DNA from: Akkermansia muciniphila
GTDB lineage: Bacteria; Verrucomicrobiota; Verrucomicrobiia; Verrucomicrobiales; Akkermansiaceae
Length of the DNA stretch: 64,000 nt
Reading direction: 5' to 3'
Assembly: GCA_945890645.1 (NCBI GenBank)
Contig: CAMDCV010000010.1
Coordinates: 1-64,000 of the forward strand
Shown here: piece after piece, positions 11,136-42,088 of the stretch
How positions within the stretch are numbered: position 1 is the stretch's first letter
Layout: each line of letters begins with the position of its first letter
Notes under the pieces: generated by a model
What the model saw: only the letters and a program-made list of their open reading frames with translations
Told to the model about the DNA's origin: nothing
The model's database searches: none
Position numbers and translations under genes: made by a program

Positions 11136-11137
11136 GG

Positions 11138-13522
11138 TCAGGTCAGGTCGTTTTTACGGCGTAGGAACCACTCCGCGCCGAGCAGGCCGACGAGTAAGAG
11201 GGCGATGTAGCCATTGTCCCACAGCGAGCGTTCCGAGCGCACGGTGGTGGTGATAGGTTCGCGATTGACGAGGGTATTAAGCTGCGACAATTGGCCCAGC
11301 GAAAGGCAAGCACCGCCGGTGCGTTCAGCGATGTGCTGCAACTGCGAGCGGCGAATGGCGGTATCGAGCAACTCTGTTTTCGCATCAACCACTTGGAACT
11401 CGGTCGTGTTCGATACCGGTTGGTCGTTTTCGTTAGACTCTAAACGATAGCGCCCCGCAGTGGGTGGAGAAAAGAATCCTTCATACAGACCCGGCTGCGT
11501 GCGGTCGGGGCGCAAGCTAACGCGCTCCTTGCGATCGGTGCCATCCAGTGCGGTGACTTCGACCTCAAATCCTGTCTGCACAATGGCCTCGAATTGCTCA
11601 TCGAGCACATGAGCATAGAGACGCGTTTGCGCATTGAGCGGATAGACGGAGCGATCCGTTTCCAAGCGGATGCGTTTGTGTTCACCCATCAAGCGCGAGA
11701 GCGTGAGGAACTGAATGCTCTGCGACCAAATGCGCCAGTGGTATTTATCGCCGGTATTGAATCGCAAACGCCACAAGCGGTCGGTGGCCAGTGACAAAAC
11801 TTTGCCCGTGCCATAACGCTGCCACGCGACCAAGGGATAGCGCTGCGTGCCCGAACTCGCATCGGAGAGCGATGCCAACACTGTGGCACCCGGCTTCGCG
11901 CCGAGCAAAGGCGGCAAGTGATCGAGCGGGGCGACGCGACTCCAGATGCGATCATTGTCCTCGGTCTTCTCTTCCATCGTCATCACCATGCTACTGCGCC
12001 CTTCAGACGTGAGCACGGGATAGACTGACTCGGAAACTTTCTCCCACTTGCCATCCGGATCAAAACGCACCGGCAGCATGTCTTCAACCGGCGTGCCCGC
12101 ATACGACAGCGGCGAGTGCATCGGCCCACAAAGCATCAGCAACGAAGCACCGCGATCGCGCACGAGTTCTTCTAACAAGCCCAATTCTTCCTCCGTAAAA
12201 AACTTTGCATCGGTATCGCCGAGAATCACGAGGTCATACTGAAATGCCTCCTCGCGTTTGCTGGGGAAACGCTCCAAGTGATCGGGAGAATTCCGCGCAA
12301 TTTCGGGACCGACGCTGGAAGCGATGAAGGTCACGTCGATGCGAGGATCGCGTTTCAAGATCGCAGAAAGATAGCGGAACTCCCATCGGGCATTGCCTTC
12401 GATGTAGAGGACTTTGACCTTTTCGTTGACCACGCGGATGCTGCGTTCGATGCGATTATTCGCGGCGGAAATTTCGTCGTTGAAGGGCTCTACAACCACT
12501 GCGATGCGAGCGGCACCTTTTTCATACAGATCAATGCGGAAATCGATATCCTCAAACTGCATGCCCCCTTCGAGACGGATTTCTTTTTGCGAAACACTGC
12601 GGTCATTCAGCAACACCGAGAGACGCACCATGCGTTTCTCGTAACCATTCGATTGGATTTGCACCCGCACTGGCACGCGGTCGCCGGAGAAGGCAACTTC
12701 TTGCATCACGATGTTGCGCAGCGAGACGTCATCAGGATCGGCGAGGCCCACAGGCACGGTGAACACCGGAATGCCACGCGAGCCAAGATCGCGCAGGATC
12801 GCTTCCGAACGCAGGGAGGAAACTTGATCAATGCCATCGGAAAACAACACGATGCCTGCTGGTGTGATGCCGCTGGCATTGGCAACGACATCGAGCGATT
12901 CGGTGATCGAGGTGGCCGGTTGATCGGCGGCTAGATTGGCGACATCGGCGGCCTGCAGCGTGGATGAATCGCGGATCATGCGCGGAGATTTTCCGAAAGC
13001 ATGATAGGAGAGATCGAGGTCATTGCCGAGCGATTGGAACAGCGCATGCGATGATTTCGTGAGAGAGGATTTGGTGAGATCGAGACGCGACGAGTCCGCG
13101 ATGGTTTGACGTTGTGCGGCATCGAGAGCGATCACGGCGCGATCCGCTTCGACCTTTTCATCGGCGGCCACGAAGCCCAGAGCGGTCGCGGCTTCCATGA
13201 GATCTTCTGGACGTTTGCGCTGGTCTTTCATCGCCATGCTTTCGGAAACATCCAGCATCACGGGCAAGGCACGTTGGCGCGTTTGCGTCTCGCGCACGAC
13301 GGCCGTTGGCTCTAACAATGCCGCAACGATCAAGGCCAGTGCCACGATCCGCGTCACCGCGAGAAAGATGCGCAACGGTGGTCGCAGCCCCCAGGAACGA
13401 CGATAGAGAAACACGCTCAAGGCGACGATGCCGACGAGCACCGCAAGCAGAGCGGCCACGCCGATGGGGCGTGCGAAAAAGATGTCTTCAATCCCGGTGA
13501 AGTTGGATAGTCCCTCAAGCAT
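11138..13522 (-). CDS. Membrane-anchored VWA domain protein with glutamine-amidotransferase-like domain
   Basis: This is a 794-aa protein. Two membrane helices occur at the N-terminus (VAALLAVLVGIVALSVFLY and AVTRIVALALIVAALLE) and one at the C-terminus (YIALLLVGLLGAEWFL). A von Willebrand A domain starts with a DxSxS metal site (LDVSESMAM, about residue 90) and includes ITPAGIVLFSDGIDQ. The middle contains a class-I amidotransferase-like segment (DLVILGDTDAKFFTEEEL and GASLLMLCGPMHS). This architecture is common in PVC bacteria next to BatA-like genes. It overlaps the BatA-like gene by 8 nt. Its partner proteins are probably the other VWA proteins and the MoxR ATPase. Function is inferred from the family only. 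Confidence 0.85.
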   Translation of the reverse strand: MLEGLSNFTGIEDIFFARPIGVAALLAVLVGIVALSVFLYRRSWGLRPPLRIFLAVTRIVALALIVAALLEPTAVVRETQTRQRALPVMLDVSESMAMKDQRKRPEDLMEAATALGFVAADEKVEADRAVIALDAAQRQTIADSSRLDLTKSSLTKSSHALFQSLGNDLDLSYHAFGKSPRMIRDSSTLQAADVANLAADQPATSITESLDVVANASGITPAGIVLFSDGIDQVSSLRSEAILRDLGSRGIPVFTVPVGLADPDDVSLRNIVMQEVAFSGDRVPVRVQIQSNGYEKRMVRLSVLLNDRSVSQKEIRLEGGMQFEDIDFRIDLYEKGAARIAVVVEPFNDEISAANNRIERSIRVVNEKVKVLYIEGNARWEFRYLSAILKRDPRIDVTFIASSVGPEIARNSPDHLERFPSKREEAFQYDLVILGDTDAKFFTEEELGLLEELVRDRGASLLMLCGPMHSPLSYAGTPVEDMLPVRFDPDGKWEKVSESVYPVLTSEGRSSMVMTMEEKTEDNDRIWSRVAPLDHLPPLLGAKPGATVLASLSDASSGTQRYPLVAWQRYGTGKVLSLATDRLWRLRFNTGDKYHWRIWSQSIQFLTLSRLMGEHKRIRLETDRSVYPLNAQTRLYAHVLDEQFEAIVQTGFEVEVTALDGTDRKERVSLRPDRTQPGLYEGFFSPPTAGRYRLESNENDQPVSNTTEFQVVDAKTELLDTAIRRSQLQHIAERTGGACLSLGQLSQLNTLVNREPITTTVRSERSLWDNGYIALLLVGLLGAEWFLRRKNDLT

Positions 13523-29228: not shown

Positions 29229-29350
29229 GGTACGTTATGCAACAGAATATTTGAAATTGGCGAAGCCGTGATCTTAAGCAATGCCATCAATCGACGCACC
29301 AGCATTGTCCTACAGCACCTGCGGCAAAACGGTCATTATCAATACCAGCA
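29229..29350. repeat. Right copy of the diverged junction repeat
   Basis: This is the counterpart of 22405-22526. It begins with the remnant SASA codons and runs into the 3' end of the intact MBL hydrolase gene. Differences are scattered over the ~120 nt (about 15 by eye), so the copies are not a fresh duplication. Confidence 0.85.
29230..29271 (+). pseudogene. 3' remnant of a SASA esterase gene
   Basis: It encodes VRYATEYLKLAKP and a stop. The intact SASA gene at 21705-22442 ends in ARYAAEYLKLAKP. Nothing upstream of these 13 codons resembles the esterase. Confidence 0.85.
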
Positions 29351-30237
29351 TCCAGCAAGGCTTTTTCTAACAAGAGGGGTGGCTCACCAAGAGGTTCATC
29401 CGTGAGCGTGAACGTGCCCCAGTGCATAGCTATGGCTTGCTTTGTTTGCGTGTCTTGAAAAACTTGCACGGCCTCTTGGGGATTCATGTGCATCGGCTGC
29501 ATGAACCAGCGCGGGGCATAGGCCCCGATGGGGATCATGCTGAGATCAAATGGGCCGAGGCGTTCACCAATTTCACGGAATACCTCACAGTAGCCGCTAT
29601 CTCCCGCGTGCCACAAACGCTTGCCGCCGCCTTCAATACTCCAGCCGCACCAGTGCGCATGATTCCGATCTAACAACGATCGCGCCGTGAAATGCTGGGC
29701 AGGTGTAGAGGTGATGTCAACTTCGCCCATTCGAAAATTTTCCCACCATGGTAGTTCTCGAACATTGGTGAAACCTTTCCCCTCCAGCCAAGCGCGATGA
29801 CCTTCTGCTACGATGATTGTAGTATTTCGTGGAAAATGTCGTAGCGTCGGCAGATCACAATGATCGTAGTGATGGTGCGTTAACAAAATGACATCGATGA
29901 CTGGCAAGTCACTCAATGACAAAGGCGGTGGCACATGGCGTTTCAAACGGGAAAAGTGAAAGGGAAACGGCGCACAGAAATCCGAAAAAATCGGATCAAT
30001 GAGAATGCGCATGCCAGCTCCACAAAGGAGAAACGACGCATGACCGAGCCAATGCACGCGCCATCCGGTGGAGGGAATCGTCTGCAAATCAGCAGGATCA
30101 ATCGCCCTCCACGGTGCGGCGGAAGTGGCGTCAGGATATGCGTTTTCTTCCTTCGGTCCGAGGCCGAGTTTCCATCGTAGCACTTCTCGAAAGCCGTGCT
30201 GATCGTGAGGCCAAGGATTGCGGAAGATGTCACTCAT
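29287..30237 (-). CDS. MBL-fold metal-dependent hydrolase (NAPE-PLD/UlaG-like)
   Basis: This is a 316-aa protein. The metallo-beta-lactamase motif is LTHHHYDHCDLPTL, preceded by WLGHASFLL and followed by TPAQHF, LWHAGDSGY and MHWGTF. These motifs match the NAPE-hydrolysing phospholipase D-like and UlaG-like branch, with Zn ligands H-x-H-x-D-H, H, D and H. No signal peptide is present, so it is cytoplasmic. The substrate is unknown. Its 3' end lies inside the island's right border repeat, and a remnant of a sister gene lies at 22458-22526. Confidence 0.87.
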   Translation of the reverse strand: MSDIFRNPWPHDQHGFREVLRWKLGLGPKEENAYPDATSAAPWRAIDPADLQTIPSTGWRVHWLGHASFLLCGAGMRILIDPIFSDFCAPFPFHFSRLKRHVPPPLSLSDLPVIDVILLTHHHYDHCDLPTLRHFPRNTTIIVAEGHRAWLEGKGFTNVRELPWWENFRMGEVDITSTPAQHFTARSLLDRNHAHWCGWSIEGGGKRLWHAGDSGYCEVFREIGERLGPFDLSMIPIGAYAPRWFMQPMHMNPQEAVQVFQDTQTKQAIAMHWGTFTLTDEPLGEPPLLLEKALLDAGIDNDRFAAGAVGQCWCVD

Positions 30238-30266
30238 CGGTTTTTATACAATGAGCGACTACTATT

Positions 30267-30746
30267 TTACTTTAGCAACTCCACCACGCTCTCGCTTGCA
30301 GGATCCCAGTAGCGAATGGCTTTTACTACGCCGCCAGATACGCTCAGCACGGTGACTTTGTTGGCTTGTTGCGGATACGAAGTCAGCAAGTTGGCCTCAT
30401 CGGCGAGGATAATGCGGTGGGGATACTTGCGCATCTTTGGCAGCGCAAACATGCGTCCTACTCCCGGCATGCCGAAAATGTTCGCGACATAGACGGCTTT
30501 TTTGTTCGTCAAAAAATCAGCTCCTTGCGCAGAGAGCGCGGCATTGGCTTTTTTGCCTGTTTCCATGTCGAAGCTCACTAACAGATATTTAGTTTTCGCC
30601 GCTTCAAATTCGTAAGCATTACCGTGCTGGTCATTGGCTTTGAAAGCCGCGACTTTACTGCCGTTTTTATAAACATCGGCCATCGCCATCGAAGTGGAGA
30701 GAGCGAGAATCAAGACGCTATTGAGAATGGTTTGCAATAATTTCAT
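30267..30746 (-). CDS. Exported thioredoxin-fold-like protein without CxxC
   Basis: This is a 159-aa protein with a signal peptide (SVLILALSTSMAMA). The mature part starts VYKNGSKVAAFKANDQHGN, as in AhpC/TlpA-like domains. It continues with a strand YLLVSFDM and a cis-Pro-like region (RKYPHRIILADEANLL). The place where redox Cys residues would sit (FDMETGKKANAAL) has none, so disulfide chemistry is unlikely. It is transcribed divergently from the gene at 30824, and the two may share the regulatory region. Confidence 0.75.
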   Translation of the reverse strand: MKLLQTILNSVLILALSTSMAMADVYKNGSKVAAFKANDQHGNAYEFEAAKTKYLLVSFDMETGKKANAALSAQGADFLTNKKAVYVANIFGMPGVGRMFALPKMRKYPHRIILADEANLLTSYPQQANKVTVLSVSGGVVKAIRYWDPASESVVELLK

Positions 30747-31321: not shown

Positions 31322-31442
31322 TTGAAATTGTGCTCGGATTATTTTTGTGTTCCCAGATCTGAGGATCGCGAGCAGGAGCAAAAATAGTGAAGAGCGATTC
31401 TGCCTTCTCTAACAATTTCTCAACATTAGACTCTATACTATT

Positions 31443-31976
31443 ATGAAAACACTACTCTCTCTCATCGCCATGACGACCATGGCCTCCGCCGGCACGATGA
31501 AAATCGATGCTTCCAAAAGCTGGTTGAAAATCGACTGTAAGGCCACCGGCCACAGTTGGTCCGCTCAACTGAAAAAATTCTCCGCTTCGGTATCGGGCGA
31601 TGACTCCACTCTCACGCCGAAAGCGGCACAGATGTCGTGGAATTTTTCGGATCTCGATTCTAACGAAGCCGATCGCGATAAAAAAATGCTGGATTGGCTC
31701 AATTCTACGAAAACCCCCGGCGGTTCGTGGAAGATGACAGGCCAATGGAAAGACGGCACGGGGCAGCAATATGTCAAAGGACCATTGACGATCGCGGGCG
31801 TGTCGAAGGAAATCACCATTCCTGTCACGGCCAAAAAAGATGGGAAGAACGTGAGTCTTGATGGCGAAGTGTGGATCGATACGACGGATCACGGACTGCC
31901 GATTATCAAAATGCTCGTCATGACCGTGAATCCTAAAGTGAAAATCAAATTTCATCTGGAGGGGCCATCGAACTGA
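31443..31976 (+). CDS. YceI-family periplasmic protein
   Basis: This is a 177-aa protein with a short signal peptide (LLSLIAMTTMASA). The lipocalin-like YceI barrel follows: IDASKSWLKIDCKATGHSW near the start, GPLTIAGVSKEITIPVTA in the middle and VWIDTTDHGLPI towards the end. YceI proteins are known to bind long polyisoprenoid chains in a hydrophobic channel. The next gene, 18 nt downstream, is a prenyl diphosphate synthase. That pairing supports an isoprenoid or quinone connection for the whole cluster. Confidence 0.88.
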   Translation: MKTLLSLIAMTTMASAGTMKIDASKSWLKIDCKATGHSWSAQLKKFSASVSGDDSTLTPKAAQMSWNFSDLDSNEADRDKKMLDWLNSTKTPGGSWKMTGQWKDGTGQQYVKGPLTIAGVSKEITIPVTAKKDGKNVSLDGEVWIDTTDHGLPIIKMLVMTVNPKVKIKFHLEGPSN

Positions 31977-31994
31977 TTCCTAACGACAGAACGT

Positions 31995-32921
31995 ATGAAT
32001 GCTAATGATCGGCTGGCACGCCGTTGTGCCTGTACGCGCAGCATCGTCGCCACTGCGTATCAACAGGGCATGGGGCAACTGCGAGGGGTCGAAAATCGGC
32101 TCGCTGCGGCGCTGCGCGATGTCCTTGCGAAACCTGGCTCACTCACACGGGCCTTGATTGCCTATCTGATGGGTATGGAAATGGGACTCGCTGAGGAAAC
32201 TTCACGTGGTCTCGCGTGTGGCATCGAGTATCTCCATACGGCATCATTGATTTTCGATGACTTGCCAGCGATGGATGACGCACGCTTGCGCCGTGGTATG
32301 CCCTGTTTGCACGTGGCCCATGGAGAGGCGGTGGCAATTTTGGCAGCCTTAGCGCTGATCAATCGTGGCTACTCTCTCGTCTGGCAAGCGGTTGGCAAAG
32401 CCCGCACAGCGCAGCGGCGTCAACAAGCATCGGCACTCGTTGAAGAGTGCCTGGGAACCGCGGGTCTCGTCGGGGGACAAGCCTATGATTTGTGTGGGTG
32501 GCGCGATGGACAAACGGCGGGGGATGTGATGGAAGTGGCGCGTCGTAAGACTGCCACGTTGTTGCGCCTGCCCCTGGTATTGCCCGCGATCATCGGCAAT
32601 GGCACCCAGCGGGAAATCCAGATGCTTGAGAGACTCGGTCTGATGCGCGGACTCAGCTATCAAGCTGTCGATGACCTGAAGGATGTCATGCTTTCGGAAG
32701 AGAGCAGCGGCAAGTCAGCAGGGCGCGATGAATTGATGGGACGCCCGAACTTGGTCGCTGCGGAGGGTTTCCAAGCAGCCTTGCAACGCCTGCGTAAAAT
32801 GATGCGAATCGGCGACGCCGTGCAAGAGCGACTGCCAGGAAATCCCGAGCGTTGGGGCATGCTTCAAATGCTTCGCGTGACCTTGCCGATGACGGCAAAA
32901 CTCGTCACTGGTGTCGGTTAG
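31995..32921 (+). CDS. Polyprenyl (geranylgeranyl/farnesyl) diphosphate synthase
   Basis: This is a 308-aa protein. The first aspartate-rich motif is FDDLPAMDDARLRRG, and the second is YQAVDDLKDVM. Both are typical of short-chain trans-prenyl synthases of the IspA/CrtE type. The motif DDxxxxD plus RRG identifies the allylic and isopentenyl diphosphate sites. Product chain length cannot be fixed by eye. It sits between a polyisoprenoid-binding YceI gene and ABC-transporter genes, suggesting a dedicated rather than general role. The next gene starts 16 nt after the stop. Confidence 0.87.
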   Translation: MNANDRLARRCACTRSIVATAYQQGMGQLRGVENRLAAALRDVLAKPGSLTRALIAYLMGMEMGLAEETSRGLACGIEYLHTASLIFDDLPAMDDARLRRGMPCLHVAHGEAVAILAALALINRGYSLVWQAVGKARTAQRRQQASALVEECLGTAGLVGGQAYDLCGWRDGQTAGDVMEVARRKTATLLRLPLVLPAIIGNGTQREIQMLERLGLMRGLSYQAVDDLKDVMLSEESSGKSAGRDELMGRPNLVAAEGFQAALQRLRKMMRIGDAVQERLPGNPERWGMLQMLRVTLPMTAKLVTGVG

Positions 32922-32937
32922 AACATTCAAACAATCT

Positions 32938-34053
32938 ATGAAACATCTCTTACGAATGATCCTTACCAATCTGCGTCGCCATCGCGTGCGCACGCTGATT
33001 GGCGCGACGGGAATCGCCCTTGGCGTGGCGACGATGCTCAGCGTCGTCGGCTTGTTAGGCGGCGCGGTGAAAATGTTCGAACGGATCCTGCGCAGTGATG
33101 CTGAGATGGTGGTGTTCGAGAAAAATGTTAGCGATTTGTTTTTCAGCAATGTCCAGGTCGAGATCGCCGATGAATTGGCGCGACAGGACTTTGTGAAAAG
33201 CGTGCAGCCGGTGCTCTTCGCGATTGTCGCTACACCGGATCGGCCGGTGGTGACCTGCTTCGGCATTCGCGCGGAGGACGGTCGCTTGCAAAAAGGCGAG
33301 TGGCTGCAAGGCGCGGTGGAAAATTTCCGCAGCGATCGCGATGGCATTGTGCTGGGGGAACGCGCGGCGGATTTCCTCAAGGTCAAGCTCGGTGAAAGTG
33401 TCGAACTCGGTCAGCAAAGTTATCCAGTGGTCGGCGTGGTGCGCATGGAAAATGGTTTTGAAAACGGTGGCGTGTTCATGCCACTGAAAGCATGCCAGGA
33501 TGCCTTTCACAAAGAAGGCGTGGCGAGTATTTTGGCGGTAGCCTTGGCTCCCAATCATGAACCAGGCGAAGTGAAGCGTTGGGTCGCGGATCGCTATCCG
33601 AAACTGACCGCTTTGGAAAACGATGAGTTCAGCAAATCGTACTCGCAGTTCAAGATACTCAAAACCACGGCCTGGGTGGTCGGCGGCTGTGCGTTTTTGT
33701 TAGGTGGATTGAGCGTGACCAATACGATGATTTTATCGGTGTTTAGTCGCATTAAAGAACTAGCGGTAACGCGGGTCTGCGGGTTTTCTCGCTCACAAGT
33801 GGTCGGCATGATTTTTGGCGAGTCGTTGATTGTTTCGCTGATCGGAGTTTTGTTAGGTTGGGGTTTGAGTACAGGTGGCTTGTGGTTGCTGCGCGAGGTA
33901 CCAGCGTTGCAAGGTTACATCGAGCCACGCGTCGGTTGGCAGGAAGTGTTAGGCGCGACTTTGCTAGCGGCACTGACGGCATTGTTTGGGGCAATTTATC
34001 CGGCTTGGTATGCGGCGCGATTGAAGCCAGCGAGTGCGCTTCGTTTTGAGTGA
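32938..34053 (+). CDS. MacB/LolC-type ABC transporter permease
   Basis: I take the ATG at 32938, giving 371 aa. A GTG at 32911 would overlap the synthase gene. The layout is one N-terminal membrane helix (TLIGATGIALGVATMLSVVG), a ~200-residue periplasmic domain, then three helices at the C-terminus (TTAWVVGGCAFLLGGLSV, then MIFGESLIVSLIGVLLGWG, then LGATLLAALTALFGAIYPAW). FtsX-type features include the LRPASALR-like end (LKPASALRFE). Such permeases extract or export lipoproteins, peptides or hydrophobic molecules using periplasmic mechanotransmission. The ATPase is the next gene. Confidence 0.9.
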   Translation: MKHLLRMILTNLRRHRVRTLIGATGIALGVATMLSVVGLLGGAVKMFERILRSDAEMVVFEKNVSDLFFSNVQVEIADELARQDFVKSVQPVLFAIVATPDRPVVTCFGIRAEDGRLQKGEWLQGAVENFRSDRDGIVLGERAADFLKVKLGESVELGQQSYPVVGVVRMENGFENGGVFMPLKACQDAFHKEGVASILAVALAPNHEPGEVKRWVADRYPKLTALENDEFSKSYSQFKILKTTAWVVGGCAFLLGGLSVTNTMILSVFSRIKELAVTRVCGFSRSQVVGMIFGESLIVSLIGVLLGWGLSTGGLWLLREVPALQGYIEPRVGWQEVLGATLLAALTALFGAIYPAWYAARLKPASALRFE

Positions 34054-34064
34054 AAGGAAATACA

Positions 34065-34718
34065 ATGATTGAGATCGATGATGTTTGGAAAAGTTTCGAC
34101 GATGGTAAAATCGCCGTTCTCAAGGGCGTGAGCTTGCAAGTAAAATCGGGCGAATTACTGGCGCTGTGTGGCACCTCGGGTTGTGGCAAATCGACTCTGC
34201 TGAGTTTGATTGCGGGGCTGGAGGATTGCGACCGCGGCGTGGTGCGGATCGATGGGCGCGTGTGGCAAAGCGAGCGAGAAAAGGTCTCTCTGCTGCGACG
34301 CGAAGTCGGCTTTGTGTTCCAATTGCACCATCTGATGCCGGATTTAACGCTCGAAGAAAACTGCCTCGTGCCGGTGATTGCGGTGGGTGGCTCGATGTCT
34401 GCGGCCAAAATTCGTATGCGCGAGTTGGCAGACATGACGGGCGTCGGGCATCGACTCGATCGCTCGGTGCGCGAGCTTTCGGGTGGCGAGCGCCAACGCG
34501 GGGCCTTGGTGCGTGCCTTGATGAATGATCCCCGAATTTTGTTAGCCGATGAGCCGACGGGTGCGCTGGATGAAGAGAACCGCGAGATCGTTTTCCAGCT
34601 TCTGTTAGATCTGGTGCGCAAGGGTGGCAAGACTCTCGTCATGGCGACGCACGACAAGGAAATGGCGCAGCGCTGTGACCGGGTCTTGCAGATGCGCGAT
34701 GGAAGAATCGTGAGCTAA
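34065..34718 (+). CDS. ABC transporter ATP-binding protein (MacB/LolD type)
   Basis: From the ATG at 34065, preceded by an aaaggaaat ribosome-binding site, the product is 217 aa. Walker A is GTSGCGKST, the Q-loop is VFQLHHLMPDLT, the signature is LSGGERQRGALVRAL and Walker B is ILLADEPTG, followed by the switch His in MATHDKEMA. It pairs with the permease directly upstream. Its stop overlaps the ATG of the following membrane-protein gene (TAATG), which ties the transporter to the haem-copper-like protein. Confidence 0.93.
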   Translation: MIEIDDVWKSFDDGKIAVLKGVSLQVKSGELLALCGTSGCGKSTLLSLIAGLEDCDRGVVRIDGRVWQSEREKVSLLRREVGFVFQLHHLMPDLTLEENCLVPVIAVGGSMSAAKIRMRELADMTGVGHRLDRSVRELSGGERQRGALVRALMNDPRILLADEPTGALDEENREIVFQLLLDLVRKGGKTLVMATHDKEMAQRCDRVLQMRDGRIVS

Positions 34719-35971
34719 TGAAGGATAGGCCGGCCATTTCCTGTGCGATTCGACACGCCTTCGGGTGGTTGTTTTTCGCGAACCTCATCGGCGTGGTGAT
34801 GGCCTTGTTGTTAGTATTTCCTCAGGCAGGAAATTTTTTGGGTGGATTCACCTACGGCCGCTGGGTGCCGCTGCATTTGAATTGGCAACTGTATGGCTGG
34901 ACTAGCCTGCCGCTGATTGCGTGGTTATTTTCGATTTACGAAGTGGATCGCTATAGCAAGACGAGTGCGTGGGCGAAAGTGGCAGTGGCAGGGTGGTCGC
35001 TGGCGTTGGCTTGCGGTGGTTTGTCGTGGTTGATGGGGCATTCGTCGGGAAAAATTTTCCTCGATTGGAAAGGCGCTGCCCTGTGGGTGTTTCTCGCCGC
35101 GCAGGTGGGGTTGTGGATTTCTTTAGCACGAGCCTTGCGGAAAAACACAGGCGAGTGGACTTCGTGGGCACGATTGTTGCGCGGCTTGGCACTTGCTTTT
35201 CTGGCGATGGTGCCATTTTCGCTGTGGCTGACCACATCGCCGCAAACCTATCCGCCGATCAATCCCAGCACGGGTGGCCCGACGGGGGCGAGTCTGTTAG
35301 GTAGTACGCTGACGGTGGTAGCGTTGTTGTTGTTGTTGCCGCGCACCTTGCGCCTAACGGGCACGCCGCGCAGTGGTCGATGGTATGTGGCCTTGTGGGT
35401 TTTTGAGTTTGTGGCATTCATCTTGTTAGAGTGGCGCGGCGGCACGCACCGTCAGATCGAACAGATTCTCGGTCTGGCCTTATTGATTCCTTGGGTGTGG
35501 TTGATCCCGCGCTGTTTGTTGGATTTCACGTGGCCTAAGGAAACCGTTTTCTGGCGTCGGTCCGCCTTGTTGTGGTGGGGCGCGCTGGTGTTGTTAGGCT
35601 GGGCGGAATTTTTGCCGGGGATTTTGGATCGGATGAAATTCACGAACGGACTGGTGGCGCATTCGCACCTAGCCATGGCAGGGTTTACCAGTTCGTATGT
35701 GCTGCTCTTGAGCGTGGCGCTGGGTGGTAGAAAAATGGGTGAGCTGTTGCGTCGGGGATCGATGCTTTGGCAAGGCTCGGTGATCGTGTATGTGATGGCG
35801 ATGATTGCTTGCGGGTGGCTGGAAGGCGCGGAGTATTCGTGGATGAGTGAAATGCCGCTCTGGCGCACGGCGCTATATGTTGTTAGACTGTTGTGTGGCT
35901 TGGTGATGCTGGGAGTTTCTTGGCAGTGGTGGTGGGGAAATATCTACGGAAGGAAACTGGATGAAGCGTAA
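34718..35971 (+). CDS. Haem-copper oxidase subunit I-like membrane protein lacking the CuB His pair
   Basis: This 417-aa protein has about 11-12 membrane helices. It resembles CcoN/NorB-type subunit I. A His in helix II lies in PLHLNWQLYGW (H53), and the HxH of helix X is in GLVAHSHLAMAGF (H315, H317), the sites that bind the low-spin and high-spin haems. A lone His in WRGGTHRQIEQ (H243) may match the first CuB ligand. The HH pair of the next helix is absent, where the sequence reads LLGWAEFLPG. The protein is shorter than usual oxidase subunits. It may carry haem but probably does not reduce O2. It is coupled to the ABC ATPase gene and overlaps the next gene. Confidence 0.65.
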   Translation: MKDRPAISCAIRHAFGWLFFANLIGVVMALLLVFPQAGNFLGGFTYGRWVPLHLNWQLYGWTSLPLIAWLFSIYEVDRYSKTSAWAKVAVAGWSLALACGGLSWLMGHSSGKIFLDWKGAALWVFLAAQVGLWISLARALRKNTGEWTSWARLLRGLALAFLAMVPFSLWLTTSPQTYPPINPSTGGPTGASLLGSTLTVVALLLLLPRTLRLTGTPRSGRWYVALWVFEFVAFILLEWRGGTHRQIEQILGLALLIPWVWLIPRCLLDFTWPKETVFWRRSALLWWGALVLLGWAEFLPGILDRMKFTNGLVAHSHLAMAGFTSSYVLLLSVALGGRKMGELLRRGSMLWQGSVIVYVMAMIACGWLEGAEYSWMSEMPLWRTALYVVRLLCGLVMLGVSWQWWWGNIYGRKLDEA

Positions 35972-36350
35972 ATTATTTTGGTGGAATGCGGGTGTGGGCG
36001 CGATGGATGCCTGCACGGGATTGTTGTTGCTGTTTGCACCGACATTGACCTTGCGCTTGATGGGCTTGCAAGCGATCGGAGCCGAAGCGCAGATCTTTTT
36101 ATCGTGGATGGGGGCGTTTGTGTTTGGTGTGGGCGCGAGTTATTTTTTGGCACTGCGCGTGCGCTCGTCTGAAGAGGGAGAAATGATTTGGAAAATGACG
36201 GCGCTGGTGCGTGCGGTGATCGCAATTTTTGTCATCGCACAAGTATCACGCGGAACGCTGGAGCCGTTATGGCTCTCGGTGGCGGCAACGGATGCGTTGG
36301 TGGCGCTGGTGCAACTTGTGGGACTAAAACGATCATGGTGGCATCAATGA
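35961..36350 (+). CDS. Small four-helix membrane protein
   Basis: This is a 129-aa protein with four hydrophobic stretches, among them ACTGLLLLFAPTLTLRLMGL and LSWMGAFVFGVGASYFLAL. A clear ribosome-binding site (aaggaaac) precedes the ATG, which lies 11 nt inside the previous gene. Its stop overlaps the ATG of the cytochrome fusion gene (ATGA). The coupling on both sides argues for a common complex. I do not recognise the family. It could be an accessory subunit or assembly factor. Confidence 0.75.
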   Translation: MKRKLFWWNAGVGAMDACTGLLLLFAPTLTLRLMGLQAIGAEAQIFLSWMGAFVFGVGASYFLALRVRSSEEGEMIWKMTALVRAVIAIFVIAQVSRGTLEPLWLSVAATDALVALVQLVGLKRSWWHQ

Positions 36351-38179
36351 CAAGCTCGACCCGACGCACGGGGATCGCTGCCGCGGTGTTAGTCGCGGGA
36401 GTGTATGCGTATTTTTTGTTGTTCTCGCAATTTGCGTTTTTGGAAATCGTGCAGAGCGCGGGATTGGGAGAAATGCGGATCAAGGCAGTGCTGGGGATGA
36501 TGGCAGTGGGTGGCATCGTAGGGGCTTATGTGGCTCAGCGGGATAAAGGGATGCGCCTCTTACGCCTCGGTTTGTTAGGGTGCATGAGTGCGGCTATTCT
36601 ATCGATGGTGGTCCATGATCTGTGGTCGTTGGGTTTGTTGTCTTTGTTGATGGGTTTGTCGTTAGGCTCCGTCACGGTGTGTTTGGCGGCATTGCTCCCG
36701 CAATGGTTGCCGCGTGAACAAGGTTGTTGGTATGTGGGAATAGGCACGGGGCTGGGTTATGCGCTTTGCAATGTGCCCATTGTGTTTCTTGCCACACCGC
36801 ATCAGCAGTTTAGAATCGCTGCGATTTTTGCGATCGTTGCGTTTGCGGCAGTGTGGTTCGTGCGAGATGCGACAGTGTCCGATGTGAGTGAACAGAAGGT
36901 CTCATTGAAGATTTCCGTTGTTGCGGCGGTGCTGGTGTTCTTGGCATTTGTGTGGATGGACTCGGGCGCTTTTTATGTGATTCAACATGCGCCGGATTTG
37001 AAAAAAGCGACGTGGGGCGCCGAAAAGTTGTGGATCAATGCCGGGCTGCATTTTTTCGCGGCGTTGCTGGCGGGATGGATGCTGGCGCGTGGTCATTTTC
37101 GATTATTGCTGTGCGCGGCGGCCGTGATTCTCGGTGCGGCAGCCTTGTGGGTGAATGATGTTTCGACACGTGTGGAGGCGGGTTACTTTTATCCGGTCGC
37201 GGTTTCGTTTTATTCGACGGCCTTGGTGTGCTGGCCAGCTTTGCTTTCAGGAAAAACTCAGGCATGGCAACGGGCCGCGTGGGTCTTTGCGATTGCAGGG
37301 TGGATTGGTTCGGGAATGGGTATTGGCATGGTGGAGAACTTGCATCGCGTGCCGGTGTGGTTTGTGATCGTGGCCTGTGGCGTGATTTTACTCGGCTTGT
37401 TCGGTGGCGTGAAAAAAGGGGCTTGGGTGATGATTTTGGCACTGGTTGGGTTTTTTCTGTTAGAAAATGGTTCGCCGCCAGCTACAACGACCTCAGCGGT
37501 GGAACGCGGGCGACAAGTCTATGTGGCGGAGGGCTGCATTCATTGTCATTCGCAATATTTGCGCCCCGAGAGCATGGATGAATCGCTGTGGGGCGAGGCG
37601 AAAAAACCAAGCGATGCATTGCAACAGCGACCGGTATTGATCGGCAATCGCCGTCAGGGTCCTGACCTCACGCATGTCGCGGGACGTCGATCCGCGACGT
37701 GGCTGCGTTTGCATTTTCTCGCGCCGCGTGATCTGGTGCCCGATAGTGTGATGCCGTCGTATGCGCATTTGTTTGAGGATCAGCGCGGCGCAGATTTGAT
37801 CGCGTATCTTACGCGCGACATCGGCGATGACATCACCGCTGTGCAACAATTAACTCAAGCCTGGCGACCTGCCTCGGTGCAGCAAGGTGATATGGCATTA
37901 GGGAAACAATTGTTTTCGCAGCACTGCGCAGTCTGCCATGGCGATGATGGTCGCTGGCAAGGAATGTTAGCAGCGCAGTTGGCAAAAGCCCCCGCCAATT
38001 TGGCCGAAGGTCCGTGGATGTGGTCGGCGAAGCGCGACGGCGAAAGCGGAGCCGTGAGTATCGCCCGCGTCGTGCGCTTCGGCATTCCCGGCACCGACAT
38101 GCCAGGTCATGAAACATGGACACCCGAGCAATGGCAGGCGGTGACTAGTTATCTGTTGCAATGTCGGGAGCAGAAGTGA
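36347..38179 (+). CDS. MFS-like membrane domain fused to two cytochrome c domains
   Basis: The start is the ATG at 36347, which overlaps the stop of the upstream gene, and the product is 610 aa. Residues 1-370 form about 12 membrane helices with an MFS look (FLLFSQFAFLEIVQSAGLG, then LLSLLMGLSLGSVTV, then CWYVGIGTGLGYALCNVP). Residues about 380-490 form a CcoO-like cytochrome c domain with CIHCHSQYLRPES and PDLTHVAGRRS. A second, CcoP-like domain has CAVCHGDDGRWQG and GTDMPGH (Met ligand). Two haem c groups are therefore expected outside the membrane. Normal cbb3 oxidases carry these domains on separate single-helix subunits. The fusion to a 12-helix domain is unusual. It could pass electrons to the coupled haem-copper-like protein. 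Confidence 0.82.
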   Translation: MTSSTRRTGIAAAVLVAGVYAYFLLFSQFAFLEIVQSAGLGEMRIKAVLGMMAVGGIVGAYVAQRDKGMRLLRLGLLGCMSAAILSMVVHDLWSLGLLSLLMGLSLGSVTVCLAALLPQWLPREQGCWYVGIGTGLGYALCNVPIVFLATPHQQFRIAAIFAIVAFAAVWFVRDATVSDVSEQKVSLKISVVAAVLVFLAFVWMDSGAFYVIQHAPDLKKATWGAEKLWINAGLHFFAALLAGWMLARGHFRLLLCAAAVILGAAALWVNDVSTRVEAGYFYPVAVSFYSTALVCWPALLSGKTQAWQRAAWVFAIAGWIGSGMGIGMVENLHRVPVWFVIVACGVILLGLFGGVKKGAWVMILALVGFFLLENGSPPATTTSAVERGRQVYVAEGCIHCHSQYLRPESMDESLWGEAKKPSDALQQRPVLIGNRRQGPDLTHVAGRRSATWLRLHFLAPRDLVPDSVMPSYAHLFEDQRGADLIAYLTRDIGDDITAVQQLTQAWRPASVQQGDMALGKQLFSQHCAVCHGDDGRWQGMLAAQLAKAPANLAEGPWMWSAKRDGESGAVSIARVVRFGIPGTDMPGHETWTPEQWQAVTSYLLQCREQK

Positions 38180-38769
38180 GCGAATCACATATGGATCGCT
38201 GCGCCCTGCGATCCGGGGCGGCGAAGTTTTTTGGGGTGTGTTGTGATACCCAGGTAGCCCTGATCGGGCAATCCCACAATGCGGGACTGTCATACGCAAC
38301 GCGCTGTCCTCTTTTTGTAAAACTAGATGGGATGCTTGAAATCATGCTGGCAAATCGAAAGTTGCGCTTTTAAAATACAAGGTTGATTCAGCGGGCGATT
38401 CAGAAAACTTTGGAAAAGGCTCCGGTTCTCGCAGTCATCTGACAAGAAGGAAGCCTATCCGCAAAAAAGAAAAATCCGCGGCCTAGCAAAAAAGCGAAGC
38501 AAAAAAATCTTGTCAGAGAGGTCGGGTGAGCTATAAAAAACTCGTATCATTGCGATTTCTCTAACTCGCAACGGTGCCTGCTACACGGCTGTTTCTTCAC
38601 TGCTCACTCGGCACTTTTCACTCTTCTATCACCACTTTCCCCCTATCTCCGAATCTCGTATTTTCTTTCCTGTCCCCATCAATCCTAAAAGAAAATTCCT
38701 AGCAATTACATTCCAGTCCTTGGTTTGCTTTGTGTTAGCATAGTATTCAAAGAGATAACATGGTCCAAC
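38180..38769. other. Intergenic region upstream of the ECF sigma gene
   Basis: Nothing coding is convincing in these 590 nt. It contains the hairpin above, a 15-nt word at 38288-38302 that recurs at 44399-44413 on the other side of the sigma/kinase module, and an A/T-rich 200-nt stretch before the sigma gene. The promoter of the sigma gene should lie near 38700-38750, but I could not pick it confidently. Confidence 0.5.
38193..38230 (+). terminator. Possible terminator of the respiratory-type operon
   Basis: GGATCGC (38193-38199) and GCGATCC (38208-38214) form a perfect 7-bp stem 14 nt beyond the stop. A run of six T follows about 12 nt later. The spacing is longer than in a standard intrinsic terminator. 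Confidence 0.4.
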
Positions 38770-39498
38770 ATGACAACGAATCCACCCACAAGAGACCAGT
38801 CATCGCAATTGTTTCCGAACACCTCGTGGTCGCTGATTCGGCAATCGCAGGATATCGCTAATCCAGCGGCGGTGCAGGCTCTGGATCAATTGGCCCGCTC
38901 TTATTGGCGGCCCTTGTATGCTTGTGTGCGCTCCATGGGTCATTCGCATCAGGATGCGGAGGATGCGGTGCAGCGGATGTTTGAGCAGTTGGTGTCGAGG
39001 GATTCGCTACGGGCGGTGCTGCCGGGGGAGACGCGGTTCCGAACTTTTCTGATCACGTGTCTTAGAAATTCCATGGCCTCAGAACATCGGGCGCGGACGT
39101 GCCAGAAGCGTGGAGGAGGGGAGGAAATGACATCCTTGGGCCCAGAGGAACTGGATGAGTTTGGGGAGGAAAATCCTCTGCTGCCTGAGGCGACTCTGGA
39201 CCGGGAGTGGGCGCTGGAGATTTTTAGCAGAGCGCTGTCACGGTTGGAGGTGGACACGGTGCAGCGGGGGCGGCAAGCCGTGTTTGATGAAGCGCTGCCG
39301 GTGTTGCGGGGCGAACAACCGGAGGGCGGCTACGCGGGATTGGCAGTTAGACTGCATATGACGGAGGGCGGAGCGCGGAAAACGGTGTTTGACCTGCGGG
39401 CGCGTTTGGGGGTGCTGCTCAGACAGGAGGTCGCGGCTACCGTGGTGGATCCAGCGGAAGCGGATCATGAAATGCGCTACCTCCTCTCGCTATTGTGA
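38770..39498 (+). CDS. ECF-type RNA polymerase sigma factor
   Basis: I choose the ATG at 38770, giving 242 aa. A TTG 45 nt upstream is possible but less likely. Region 2 is visible as a helical block with YWRPLYACVRSMGHSHQDAE, DAVQRMFEQLV and RFRTFLITCLRNSMASEHRA. Region 4 is GGYAGLAVRLHMTEGGARKT, followed by VFDLRARLGVLLRQEV. It belongs to the long ECF-type factors that PVC bacteria pair with Ser/Thr kinases. The kinase gene follows 67 nt later. No separate anti-sigma gene is present, so the kinase is the likely controller. Confidence 0.87.
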   Translation: MTTNPPTRDQSSQLFPNTSWSLIRQSQDIANPAAVQALDQLARSYWRPLYACVRSMGHSHQDAEDAVQRMFEQLVSRDSLRAVLPGETRFRTFLITCLRNSMASEHRARTCQKRGGGEEMTSLGPEELDEFGEENPLLPEATLDREWALEIFSRALSRLEVDTVQRGRQAVFDEALPVLRGEQPEGGYAGLAVRLHMTEGGARKTVFDLRARLGVLLRQEVAATVVDPAEADHEMRYLLSLL

Positions 39499-39565
39499 AA
39501 GGACTATTTTTCATAAAAATGGTCGTGCACGGAAACGCGGTCTTCTTTTTGGCGAATGAATCTAT

Positions 39566-42088
39566 ATGACCGACGTCCCAGCCGCTTCCTCTCCCGAAAC
39601 CTGTCCTGACTGCGGGCGCGATCTACCACAGAGTAAGGGCTGCCTACATTGTGCCGTGGAACTAGCTCTGGCCGCAGCCACAGAGTGTCCGGAAGCCGAG
39701 GCGGATTTATTGGATTCTTCCCATTTGTTGGCAAAACAGGGTGGATTTGCCGCTTTTTCGGATCCGGTTCTTCCCATGCAGGTAGGGCGTTTTCGATTGT
39801 TGCGGAGGTTGGGGATCGGCGGCATGGGGGCCGTGTATGAAGCTGTCGATGGTGCGCTGGACCGCATCGTGGCGCTGAAAATGATCCGCGGTTTCCATTT
39901 TTCCACGGCAGATGAAATGAGCCGCTTCCAACGGGAAGCGCAGGCGGCGGCTCGGTTGGACCATTCGAATATTGTGCCGGTCTATGAGATTGGGGAAGTG
40001 GATGGGTGCCCATTTCTTTCCATGAAAATGATCCGGGGTGGGACTCTAGCAGAGCGCCTTAAGACAGGGCGGATGGCTGCTGAGGAATCAGCCGCCATCA
40101 TGGCAAAGGTGGCTGCGGCTGTCGGCTACGCCCATGAGAGGGGCATTCTGCATCGGGACCTTAAACCCTCCAATATCCTGCTGGACGAGGAGGGCGAACC
40201 ATGGCTGACGGATTTTGGCATGGCGCGGCTTTCCGGAACGGAGGTGGCTCTGACCGTGACGGGAGCGCAGATTGGCACTCCCCATTATATGTCACCAGAG
40301 CAGGCGGCAGGATTGGTGCGGGCATTGACGCCCGCGAGTGATGTGTGGGGGCTCGGGGCCATTTTTTACCAGATGTTGAGCGGCCAACTCCCTTATGAAG
40401 GTGAGTCGAATGTGGCGATCATGCATCAGGTGTTGTCGGCGGATCCTCCCCAATTGCAGGCAAAGTCGCGCCGTGAAATGGAGCTCGCGGTGCTCATCGA
40501 GCGCTGTTTGCAGAAAGAACCAAGCATGCGCATGCAAAGTGCCACAATGCTTGCGGAGGAGCTGGAACGATGGTTGAAGCAGCGGCCGATTCTCTCCCGG
40601 CCAGTGTCGTGGTGGGAGAAATCCCTGCGTTGGTCGAAGCAGCGTCGTTGGTCATTGGTCTCGGGGTCTGTTGCTCTCATGGGCGTGGCACTTGCCATCA
40701 GTAGATTCTGGCCGATCGCTGAAAACCGACCGACTGGTGCGGTTGCGGAAATCATCATTTCGAGAGAAGGGAGCCGCTTGGTGCTGCGCGATGTAGCGGG
40801 TGGGGATCAATTGCTTTATATTGGCGAGAAGGAGCCTGGCACCATTCATTTCCGCGAGGAGGGACGCCATTTCCAAATGCCGGATGGATCCATGATTCTG
40901 GGTGCTACCGCGGGAATCGCTTTGGACGGGATTACCCAGATCTTGGTGGACGGTGGGGCAGGGCAGGACAACATAAACTTCGTTGGCATTGGAACTCCGT
41001 TGCCGAACCTTCAGATCAATGGGGGTGAGGGAGACGATTTGATTCAGTTTTGGAAACCGATTTCGTTTAAGGCAAACGCCGGGCTTGATGTGGACTTGCA
41101 GGATGATGCCGCTGCGCCCGGCGTAGATGGCGTGCGGTTTCAAGAAGGAGCCGTTGTGAAAACCTCCGGCACAGGGAAGATCACTGTGCGCTGTAGTTCT
41201 GGTCTTTTTGTCGGGAAAGCTGAATTGCGCACGGTTGATGGTGGAATTACACTGGAAGCGAATCAGCAAGCAATCCCGACTGTTGCCGAATTCAAGGGCA
41301 TCGAACTCAATCGGGCGCATGTCATCAGTGATGGCATAGGCCCCATCAACATGAGTGCGCGCGGTGGCACGAGAGGGATCTTTCAGTTTGGTATTTCGTT
41401 GACGAATCAAGTGCTCATTCAGGGAGGGACCAAGGGCGCTGTCACCCTGCGTGGCCAGGGGGGAGCTGGCAACGGACAAAACGATAGTAGCGGCATCAAT
41501 ATGGTAGAGGAGCGCTGCATGATCACCAGCAAAGGTGCTGATATCCTGCTCGAAGGTCGGGGCGTGGGCTCTCCAGAAACGGGCAGCAACAACGGCATCG
41601 CCATCGTGGCAGGCACGATTCAAGGAAATGGGAAAGTCACCCTGGATGGAAAAGGCGGTGAAACCAAGGGCGGCGCGAATCATGGCATCCTGCTGCGGGG
41701 GCCTTTGGTAGCCATTCGTTCCAGTGGCGGAGACATTTTCCTCAAGGGACAAGGTGGAGGCACGAGCAACTCCCATGTGACCAACAATGGTGGAGTTGTC
41801 GTGAGATACAATGCTTCCGTGCAGGCGGATGGATCTGACAATATCATTATGGAAGGTCGTGGCGGGATGGGCGGAGGCAGTGATCAGGTAGGTGTCGTGA
41901 TTTTTGAAGGAGCTAAAATCGATGCCGCCGCAGGCAGTATCAAGATCACCGGACATTCCGGCAATGATAGCTCGCTTAGCGTCCAAGTTGCTAGCCCCGG
42001 ACGCGTGCGCACCAATGGCCCAAAGCCCAGAGTGGTCATCGAGGGCGAGCGCCAGGAAATCGAAGAGGCCGCTCTGCAGGTGAAGTGA
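39566..42088 (+). CDS. Transmembrane Ser/Thr kinase with glycine-rich beta-solenoid-like ectodomain
   Basis: This is an 840-aa protein. A zinc-ribbon-like N-terminus has Cys pairs (CPDCGRDLPQSKGCLHC). The kinase domain (about 75-345) is complete: LGIGGMGAVYEAVD, the Lys in IVALKMIRG, HRDLKPSNILL and TDFGMARL. One membrane helix follows (about 362-382, LVSGSVALMGVALAI). The ~450-residue outside part is rich in Gly, Asn and Asp. Its repeated strands (VTLRGQGGAGNGQN, ILLEGRGVGSPETG, VTLDGKGGETKGGAN, IFLKGQGGGTSNS, IIMEGRGGMGGGSD) resemble filamentous-haemagglutinin or autotransporter beta-helices. Part of this ectodomain reads like a calcium-binding repeat (GGAGQDNINF, NGGEGDDLIQF). The kinase may sense surface events and act on the upstream sigma factor. 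The C-terminal 24 codons recur at 24031-24105. Confidence 0.88.
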   Translation: MTDVPAASSPETCPDCGRDLPQSKGCLHCAVELALAAATECPEAEADLLDSSHLLAKQGGFAAFSDPVLPMQVGRFRLLRRLGIGGMGAVYEAVDGALDRIVALKMIRGFHFSTADEMSRFQREAQAAARLDHSNIVPVYEIGEVDGCPFLSMKMIRGGTLAERLKTGRMAAEESAAIMAKVAAAVGYAHERGILHRDLKPSNILLDEEGEPWLTDFGMARLSGTEVALTVTGAQIGTPHYMSPEQAAGLVRALTPASDVWGLGAIFYQMLSGQLPYEGESNVAIMHQVLSADPPQLQAKSRREMELAVLIERCLQKEPSMRMQSATMLAEELERWLKQRPILSRPVSWWEKSLRWSKQRRWSLVSGSVALMGVALAISRFWPIAENRPTGAVAEIIISREGSRLVLRDVAGGDQLLYIGEKEPGTIHFREEGRHFQMPDGSMILGATAGIALDGITQILVDGGAGQDNINFVGIGTPLPNLQINGGEGDDLIQFWKPISFKANAGLDVDLQDDAAAPGVDGVRFQEGAVVKTSGTGKITVRCSSGLFVGKAELRTVDGGITLEANQQAIPTVAEFKGIELNRAHVISDGIGPINMSARGGTRGIFQFGISLTNQVLIQGGTKGAVTLRGQGGAGNGQNDSSGINMVEERCMITSKGADILLEGRGVGSPETGSNNGIAIVAGTIQGNGKVTLDGKGGETKGGANHGILLRGPLVAIRSSGGDIFLKGQGGGTSNSHVTNNGGVVVRYNASVQADGSDNIIMEGRGGMGGGSDQVGVVIFEGAKIDAAAGSIKITGHSGNDSSLSVQVASPGRVRTNGPKPRVVIEGERQEIEEAALQVK

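Follow-up and report, generated by a model that had tools for sequence, protein, structure and literature searches.

Why would a bacterium keep a relative of the haem-copper oxidases in the middle of a set of genes for lipid handling? This question is raised by a contig of Akkermansia muciniphila (CAMDCV010000010.1, from GenBank assembly GCA_945890645.1). The window that we analyzed is the first 64,000 nucleotides of this contig, read on the forward strand. Between positions 31443 and 38179, it contains genes for a YceI-family lipocalin, a prenyl diphosphate synthase, the permease and the ATPase of an ATP-binding cassette (ABC) transporter, a protein that resembles the oxidase subunit CcoN, a small four-helix protein, and a cytochrome fused to a domain of the major facilitator superfamily (MFS). 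The original prediction, made from the sequence alone, was that a prenylated compound or quinone is made, bound, exported, and linked to electron flow. We think that the central idea, isoprenoid handling tied to electron flow, is right: the gene content and the predicted folds agree with it. The "made" and "exported" parts are roles that we infer for the synthase and the ABC pair. Our preferred explanation, which we hold tentatively and with somewhat less than even confidence, is that the module is a lipid-redox system that would work like the BcnA (YceI) and LcoA (cytochrome b561) pair of Burkholderia, with a cbb3-like relay in place of b561, and with the ABC transporter and the synthase handling the isoprenoid ligand.

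Seven tightly packed genes

The block is real: it comprises seven tightly packed genes on the plus strand, in the order first described (Table 1). Gene calls, Pfam and NCBIfam, and predicted structures all bear out the proposed gene identities and their tight co-directional coupling. Pfam and NCBIfam name five of the seven, namely YceI, the synthase, the permease, the ATPase, and the MFS-cytochrome (via FixO and cytochrome c). Neither the CcoN-like protein (P0005) nor the four-helix protein (P0006) has a Pfam match, and the MFS half of the MFS-cytochrome (P0007) matches weakly (E = 0.019). Predicted structures gave a haem-copper-oxidase fold for P0005 and an MFS fold for residues 1-356 of P0007.

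There are 18 nucleotides between the genes for YceI and the synthase. The permease overlaps the ATPase by 4 nucleotides, the ATPase overlaps the CcoN-like gene by 1, the CcoN-like gene overlaps the four-helix gene by 11, and the four-helix gene overlaps the MFS-cytochrome by 4. According to the alignment of its family, the permease is likelier to start at the ATG at 32938, which leaves a gap of 16 nucleotides after the synthase. The TTG that is listed as the start of the MFS-cytochrome, at 36188, is unlikely to be the true start. A scan for promoters and terminators gave counts near chance (7 versus 4.1 with a standard deviation of 2.2, and 15 versus 10.4 with a standard deviation of 3.2, in shuffled sequences), and one of its sites, at 31417-31444, reaches into the start of YceI and was discarded.

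Table 1. Genes of the module and its two upstream neighbors, in window coordinates
Feature	Position	Strand	Basis
Lipocalin of the YceI family, a periplasmic binder of isoprenoids or quinones; signal peptide by eye	31443..31976	+	Pfam YceI, E = 1.1e-17
Trans-prenyl diphosphate synthase	31995..32921	+	Pfam polyprenyl_synt, E = 1.2e-37
MacB/LolE-type ABC permease	32911..34053 (GTG 32911)	+	Pfam FtsX and MacB_PCD
LolD/FtsE/MacB-type ABC ATPase	34050..34718 (GTG 34050)	+	NCBIfam LolD, E = 7e-62, under the family cut-off
CcoN-like 12-helix haem protein (P0005) without CuB histidines	34718..35971	+	Predicted structure and profile match
Four-helix membrane protein (P0006), function unassigned	35961..36350	+	No Pfam family
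MFS-cytochrome (P0007): MFS 1-356, CcoO/FixO-like c-haem 386-484, CcoP-like c-haem 517-605	36347..38179	+	
NAPE-PLD-like metallo-beta-lactamase-fold lipid hydrolase	29287..30237	-	phmmer to 4qn9, E = 3e-64
Secreted thioredoxin-like protein without cysteines	30267..30746	-	Fold by eye; no Pfam match

An oxidase fold without the copper site

The predicted structure of P0005 matches the 12-helix fold of subunit I of the haem-copper oxidase superfamily, and more specifically CcoN along its full length. A profile of 17 relatives of P0005 matched cbb3 CcoN in the PDB (9g6b, E = 7.8e-7). The AlphaFold (AF2) model, built with 77 sequences, had a mean predicted local distance difference test score (pLDDT) of 94.8 and a predicted template modeling score (pTM) of 0.93. 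When this model was compared to known structures with VIA-align, CcoN topped both structure lists (3mk7, Z = 29.4, 399 residues aligned, root-mean-square deviation 4.2), followed by a nitric oxide (NO) reductase (cNOR, Z = 28.2). We rejected NnrS or another fold, as the top structural matches are all haem-copper oxidases or NO reductases, although this is not a formal exclusion.

The histidines of the family suggest that it binds haem. Across the 77 sequences, H53 and H315 are invariant (77/77 each), H317 is present in 66, and H244 is present in 74, with a second histidine following H244 in 38. The window protein has just six histidines (13, 53, 108, 244, 315, and 317). These include the pair for low-spin haem, H53 in transmembrane helix (TM) 2 and H317 in TM10, while H315 aligns to the first histidine of the HVH motif in TM10 of CcoN, which by homology is the proximal ligand of the high-spin haem. 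So by homology, H53/H317 and H315 are ligands of haem b; here we assume that the ligand roles familiar from CcoN apply to P0005.

The three-histidine CuB or FeB site of functional cbb3 oxidases and NO reductases, which is formed by a histidine in TM6 and a pair in TM7, was not found in P0005. In two alignments, the equivalent of the TM6 histidine of CcoN is alanine, proline, or a gap across the family. Of the six histidines of the window protein, H244 is the only one close to the TM7 region, which rules out a CuB site of three histidines. (One alignment matches H244 to the first histidine of the pair in TM7, and the other displaces it by about six residues.) Also, no tyrosine is invariant or nearly so within residues 220-240, which is presumably where the active-site tyrosine of CcoN would fall. 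The description of P0005 as haem-copper-oxidase-like thus stands for its fold and ancestry and fails for its chemistry: to judge by the aligned residues, "haem-copper" describes where the protein came from and not what it does.

Could P0005 nevertheless be a terminal reductase, with an altered site at which the high-spin haem and H244 reduce O2, NO, or peroxides? The fold is that of such enzymes, and the conservation of H315 and H244, along with the second histidine in some members, is what one would expect. But the TM6 histidine for CuB is absent from the aligned families, the window protein has a single spare histidine in that region, and the two alignments disagree about where H244 belongs. 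We consider a terminal reductase to be quite improbable.

A cytochrome joined to a transporter fold

The other parts of a cbb3 oxidase, a CcoO-like mono-haem domain and a CcoP-like haem domain, are found in P0007. Its cytochrome part matches Pfam's FixO (E = 1.6e-27, over the cut-off) and cytochrome c (E = 1.5e-14), and profile comparisons match it to CcoO (E = 7.9e-32) and CcoP (E = 9e-9). The CxxCH motifs and Met469 and Met585 are kept in 67-68 of 68 sequences. P0007 was folded alone, and the model had a pLDDT of 88.2 and a pTM of 0.70, with weak linkers. P0005 and the c-haem part of P0007 are thus a derivative of cbb3 oxidase that lacks the oxygen-reducing center and is joined to a transporter fold.

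Residues 1-356 of P0007 have an MFS fold (VIA Z of about 31, 11% identity). The top structural matches (MelB, SV2A, VAChT, sialin, and others) nearly tie, so the MFS subtype does not indicate a substrate. Asp205, Gln213, and His235 are invariant or nearly so, which suggests that the domain functions in transport and is more than an anchor. One candidate was copper import, as in the MFS protein CcoA/CalT, whose motifs are HxxxM and MxxxM according to the available text of a report on that family (PMC6362234). We rejected this because HxxxM is absent: the residue four positions after H235 is alanine or glycine in 68 of 68 sequences (MxxxM was not counted separately).

In some relatives, the frames of the CcoN-like gene and the MFS-cytochrome form a single open reading frame of about 1,130 amino acids (L070, L072 at 9995-13384, L075, and L084; truncated in L073; also L025-L027), and the CcoN-like gene has no stop codon of its own in the joined-frame loci. 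We do not accept these as natural fusions that would be evidence of contact between the two proteins. The four-helix gene lies inside the joined frame, in another frame, and the joined frame there encodes charged, off-frame sequence. When the four-helix genes from L070, L072, L073, L075, and L084 were codon-shuffled, 806-1471 of 2000 (40-74%) were free of stops in the joined frame.

The lipid-handling genes

The nearest solved relative of the YceI family profile is 5ixh (E = 2e-15), which is the lipocalin BcnA of B. cenocepacia (PMC9113575). YceI barrels hold mostly isoprenoids or ubiquinone-8, according to the part of that paper that is available (PMC9113575).

The synthase has intact aspartate-rich motifs (D88, D89, M93, and D94; D226, D227, and D230), which are invariant in 64 sequences. 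On the other hand, the GGKRxR motif of the isopentenyl diphosphate (IPP) site is found in 0 of 66 sequences. PGSxxR is the most common replacement, PGKxxR occurs in nine, and the window enzyme has PGSLTR instead of GGKRxRP. We considered whether these are catalytically dead synthases, an idea that is weakened by the 9 of 66 that keep the lysine of the motif. In prenyl synthases, the residue five positions before the first aspartate motif bears on the length of the product. The module's enzyme has alanine at this position, so by this rule a product longer than C15 is indicated; the genome's own farnesyl-type enzyme has tyrosine there.

Profiles of the permease match MacB, LolF, and LolE. It is 48-96% identical to the other members of its family and is better conserved than YceI or the synthase, while its score against NCBIfam's lolCE permease (69.6 bits) is far below the cut-off of 362.

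Conservation of the module

The original prediction could have been undone if these genes were scattered in relatives or were a chance arrangement in one strain. We searched 387 Verrucomicrobiota genomes for P0005, which matched 20 including the source genome, and retrieved the 19 others. We also scanned 84,980 species genomes with a profile, which gave 115 relatives, of which 80 loci were retained for counts. (These two sets overlap in part and are not independent.) All seven genes are present in 49 of the 80 loci, mostly from Verrucomicrobiota, and many of the other loci are cut by the ends of contigs. There happen to be 49 loci whose flanks reach about 5.5 kb or more on the upstream side and 2.6 kb or more on the downstream side, and 36 of these have all seven genes by the first set of queries; queries with acidobacterial YceI proteins add YceI in three more (L082, L083, and L098). 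Junctions that overlap are also common, with the caveat that starts were chosen by a script and the counts are approximate: 63 of 73 for the CcoN-like and four-helix genes, 61 of 69 for the four-helix gene and the MFS-cytochrome, and 53 of 76 for the ATPase and the CcoN-like gene. Because the order and the packing recur in distant relatives, the module is not a chance arrangement.

Most carriers are metagenome-assembled genomes (MAGs) of Verrucomicrobiota, and many of these are from freshwater. The carriers from Acidobacteriota include the cultured isolates Terriglobus roseus and Edaphobacter modestus, as well as Acidipila rosea and a Thermoanaerobaculia MAG. Among 297 Acidobacteriota genomes that we sampled, P0005 had matches in 37, and these were full length in five (G387, G562, G621, G622, and G536); the other 32 matches are partial and are probably mostly ordinary CcoN proteins. 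The distribution is patchy, as two genomes from the same genus as the source genome had no match to P0005. One locus (L095) is on a contig titled Rhodanobacteraceae. Its CcoN-like protein lacks H317, which is an acidobacterial trait, and given such traits on a gammaproteobacterial-titled contig, mis-binning or transfer is possible.

Which genes are the core? The CcoN-like and MFS-cytochrome genes occur together in all 19 of the other Verrucomicrobiota genomes. In these genomes, strong matches to the permease, the ATPase, and the synthase were found in 15 each, YceI in 16, and the four-helix protein in 13; the four-helix gene was found in 73 of the 80 loci. Natural variants may lack the ABC genes, YceI, or the four-helix protein locally. 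The CcoN-like protein and the MFS-cytochrome make up the constant core, the synthase and YceI are close companions, and the ABC pair is common yet dispensable. In two Verrucomicrobiota loci (L104:19205-21034 and L113:19253-21085), about 7.6 kb separate the four-helix gene from the MFS-cytochrome downstream of it. The view of this region as seven coupled genes therefore holds in that the set is conserved, but individual members are locally dispensable, and it left out recurrent neighbors, a hydrolase and a thioredoxin-like protein.

YceI sits directly 3' of the MFS-cytochrome in five acidobacterial loci (L074, L080, L081, L089, and L098) and in L110. Because YceI is re-attached at the 3' end in these six loci, its linkage survives rearrangement. 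Elsewhere in the acidobacterial loci, YceI is upstream, either on the opposite strand (L082 and L083) or on the strand of the module (L114), and a search that included acidobacterial queries found none at L088 or L095. If the genes had unrelated jobs and were co-inherited by descent, then it would not be surprising that some members are locally missing. But the same set, order, and overlaps across two phyla, and a YceI that moves while remaining adjacent, disfavor this on genomic grounds, and we think that it is very improbable.

Genome context and neighbors

The source genome encodes a single YceI and has no matches to the b561 family (PF01292), so this operon is the genome's only visible pairing of YceI with a redox protein. 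The module's synthase is the third prenyl diphosphate synthase in the genome, which also encodes three UbiA-family prenyltransferases. There are three other COX1-type oxidase genes, including a CcoN-CcoO fusion; the third of them (G000:C23:14990-16225) matches the COX1 family weakly, at 139 bits.

Just upstream of the module, and divergent from it, are the genes for the hydrolase and the thioredoxin-like protein (29287-30746, minus strand). The structure that the hydrolase matches, 4qn9, is that of an N-acyl-phosphatidylethanolamine phospholipase D. Homologues of the hydrolase occur in 27 of the 80 loci, and in L082, L088, and L114 the homologue immediately follows the 3' end of the module, on the module's strand. 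Homologues of the thioredoxin-like protein occur in 24 of the 80 loci. With loose clustering, histidine kinases recur at 28 loci and response regulators at 19. Downstream of the module (38746-42088, plus strand), an extracytoplasmic function (ECF)-type sigma factor gene precedes the gene for a large Ser/Thr kinase whose C-terminal part is repetitive; none of the 80 loci has a homologue of the sigma factor next to the module.

How might the module work?

By sequence and predicted structure, the CcoN-like subunit and the MFS-bound, CcoO/CcoP-like dihaem cytochrome c are the redox parts, homologous to CcoN-CcoO-CcoP of cbb3 oxidase. In a lipid-redox system that works like BcnA-LcoA, they would form one complex. 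Electrons would travel among the haem b groups, the two c haems, and either a periplasmic cytochrome c or the quinone pool, and would be used to reduce an isoprenoid redox lipid or be taken from it. This lipid would most likely be a quinone or some other compound with a prenyl group, and either the membrane or YceI would hold it. The ABC pair, which is of the LolCDE/MacB type with one permease, would take this lipid out of the inner membrane and pass it to YceI, and the synthase would supply its prenyl chain, which would be longer than farnesyl. The likeliest use would be to keep envelope lipids reduced and to quench lipid radicals or peroxides, as has been proposed for BcnA-LcoA. Steps that go beyond the gene content and the folds are ones that we infer. 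The linkage of all seven genes, the relocation of YceI to sites that remain adjacent, and the recurrence of the NAPE-PLD-like hydrolase alongside the module support a lipid-redox role.

Several observations weigh against this proposal. Four relatives (G038, G169, G181, and G390) have the redox core and the synthase with no close permease, and the ABC genes are absent; YceI or the synthase is missing from some loci, so the core can do without export. Acidobacterial members of the P0005 family lack H317, so the low-spin haem may be missing from part of the family. Most of the synthases lack the IPP-binding lysine, so their reaction may differ. And neither the direction of the electrons nor a protective role follows from gene linkage alone.

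A respiratory role is unlikely in our view, if still a serious contender. The module would then be a quinol:cytochrome c or quinol:acceptor oxidoreductase whose haem b oxidizes menaquinol and whose dihaem cytochrome c passes electrons to soluble cytochromes or oxidases, with the MFS domain as an anchor or ion path and the lipid genes doing no more than tuning the supply of quinone. This would account for the cbb3-like haem chain with its CcoO- and CcoP-like domains and for the CcoN-like and MFS-cytochrome pair being the most constant part. The genome also has cbb3- and aa3-type oxidases that could act downstream, and the MFS half keeps its invariant Asp205, Gln213, and His235. What it leaves unexplained is the near-constant linkage to the synthase and YceI, as well as the hydrolase neighbor.

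Another possibility is a new class of membrane machine, in which this oxidase descendant abandoned oxygen chemistry and became an electron-driven lipid transporter or reductase. Its CcoN-like haem core would supply or withdraw electrons by way of the CcoO/CcoP-like haems on a flippase-like MFS domain, and the redox change of a prenyl-lipid would thereby be coupled to flipping of the lipid and to its loading onto YceI by the ABC pair. We would call this rather unlikely.

Or the module might mainly export a prenyl-lipid as LolCDE does. The synthase would make a pigment, quinone, or signaling lipid, the ABC pair would extract it, YceI would carry it to the outer membrane or the outside, and the redox proteins would reduce or oxidize the cargo. 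The permease belongs to the MacB/LolE family and is better conserved than YceI and the synthase, and the YceI family holds isoprenoids. Yet the ABC pair is absent from the four relatives above, which do keep the redox core and the synthase, and the operon encodes no enzyme that would modify an acceptor. Export as the main function strikes us as decidedly unlikely. In one genome (G215), the redox trio is on one contig and the permease-ATPase pair is on another, which fits either export or a lipid-redox role.

Comparison to known systems

No described system of this composition was known to us at the outset, and we did not find one in the open literature, outside of which most subscription papers fall. 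The closest parallel is BcnA-LcoA. In Burkholderia, the YceI lipocalin BcnA is genetically tied to LcoA, a haem b protein of the b561 type, and loss of either raises lipid peroxidation; the authors propose that the cytochrome reduces the ubiquinone that is bound by YceI (as described in the available part of PMC9113575). The module shares a YceI lipocalin alongside a predicted haem b membrane protein. It differs in having a CcoN fold and an MFS-dihaem cytochrome instead of b561, and in adding its own synthase and ABC exporter. Since b561 was tested for and is absent, the module falls outside the BcnA-LcoA family.

With cbb3 oxidase (CcoN-CcoO-CcoP), the module shares the CcoN fold, the haem ligands, and the CcoO- and CcoP-like c-haem domains. 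Unlike that oxidase, it lacks a CuB site, its CcoO/CcoP-like parts are fused to an MFS domain, and it is set in a lipid operon. The ABC pair belongs to the permease and ATPase families of LolCDE and MacAB-TolC, which extract lipids or amphiphiles from the inner membrane. However, LolCDE has both LolC and LolE instead of one permease, and the carrier here would be YceI instead of LolA; and in contrast to MacAB-TolC, the ATPase and the permease are separate open reading frames, with no MacA adaptor among the seven genes. We take the locus for flavin-based extracellular electron transfer to be another case of a dedicated synthase, as its prenyl synthase DmkB adjoins redox genes, but we know of no redox components that are homologous between that locus and the module. 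Finally, Cbp2D of Cellvibrio japonicus combines a YceI-like X158 domain with two c-type cytochrome domains (PMC8981238), so both systems have a YceI-like quinone-binding domain and two c haems as an electron-transfer unit. As far as the available part of that report describes it, Cbp2D is a secreted single protein with a carbohydrate-binding module that acts in polysaccharide oxidation, without CcoN, MFS, ABC, or synthase components.

Implications

How double-membrane bacteria maintain the redox state of envelope lipids and quinones outside of the inner membrane is hardly understood. A pair of YceI and b561 has been tied to the upkeep of envelope lipids (in the available part of PMC9113575). 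If the module does have a lipid-redox role, then it offers a second and richer solution. In any case, a relative of the haem-copper oxidases that seems to lack the copper site should be useful for understanding the evolution of that superfamily. And the conservation of the module in distant bacteria suggests that there is an undescribed machine for moving electrons to or from membrane lipids.

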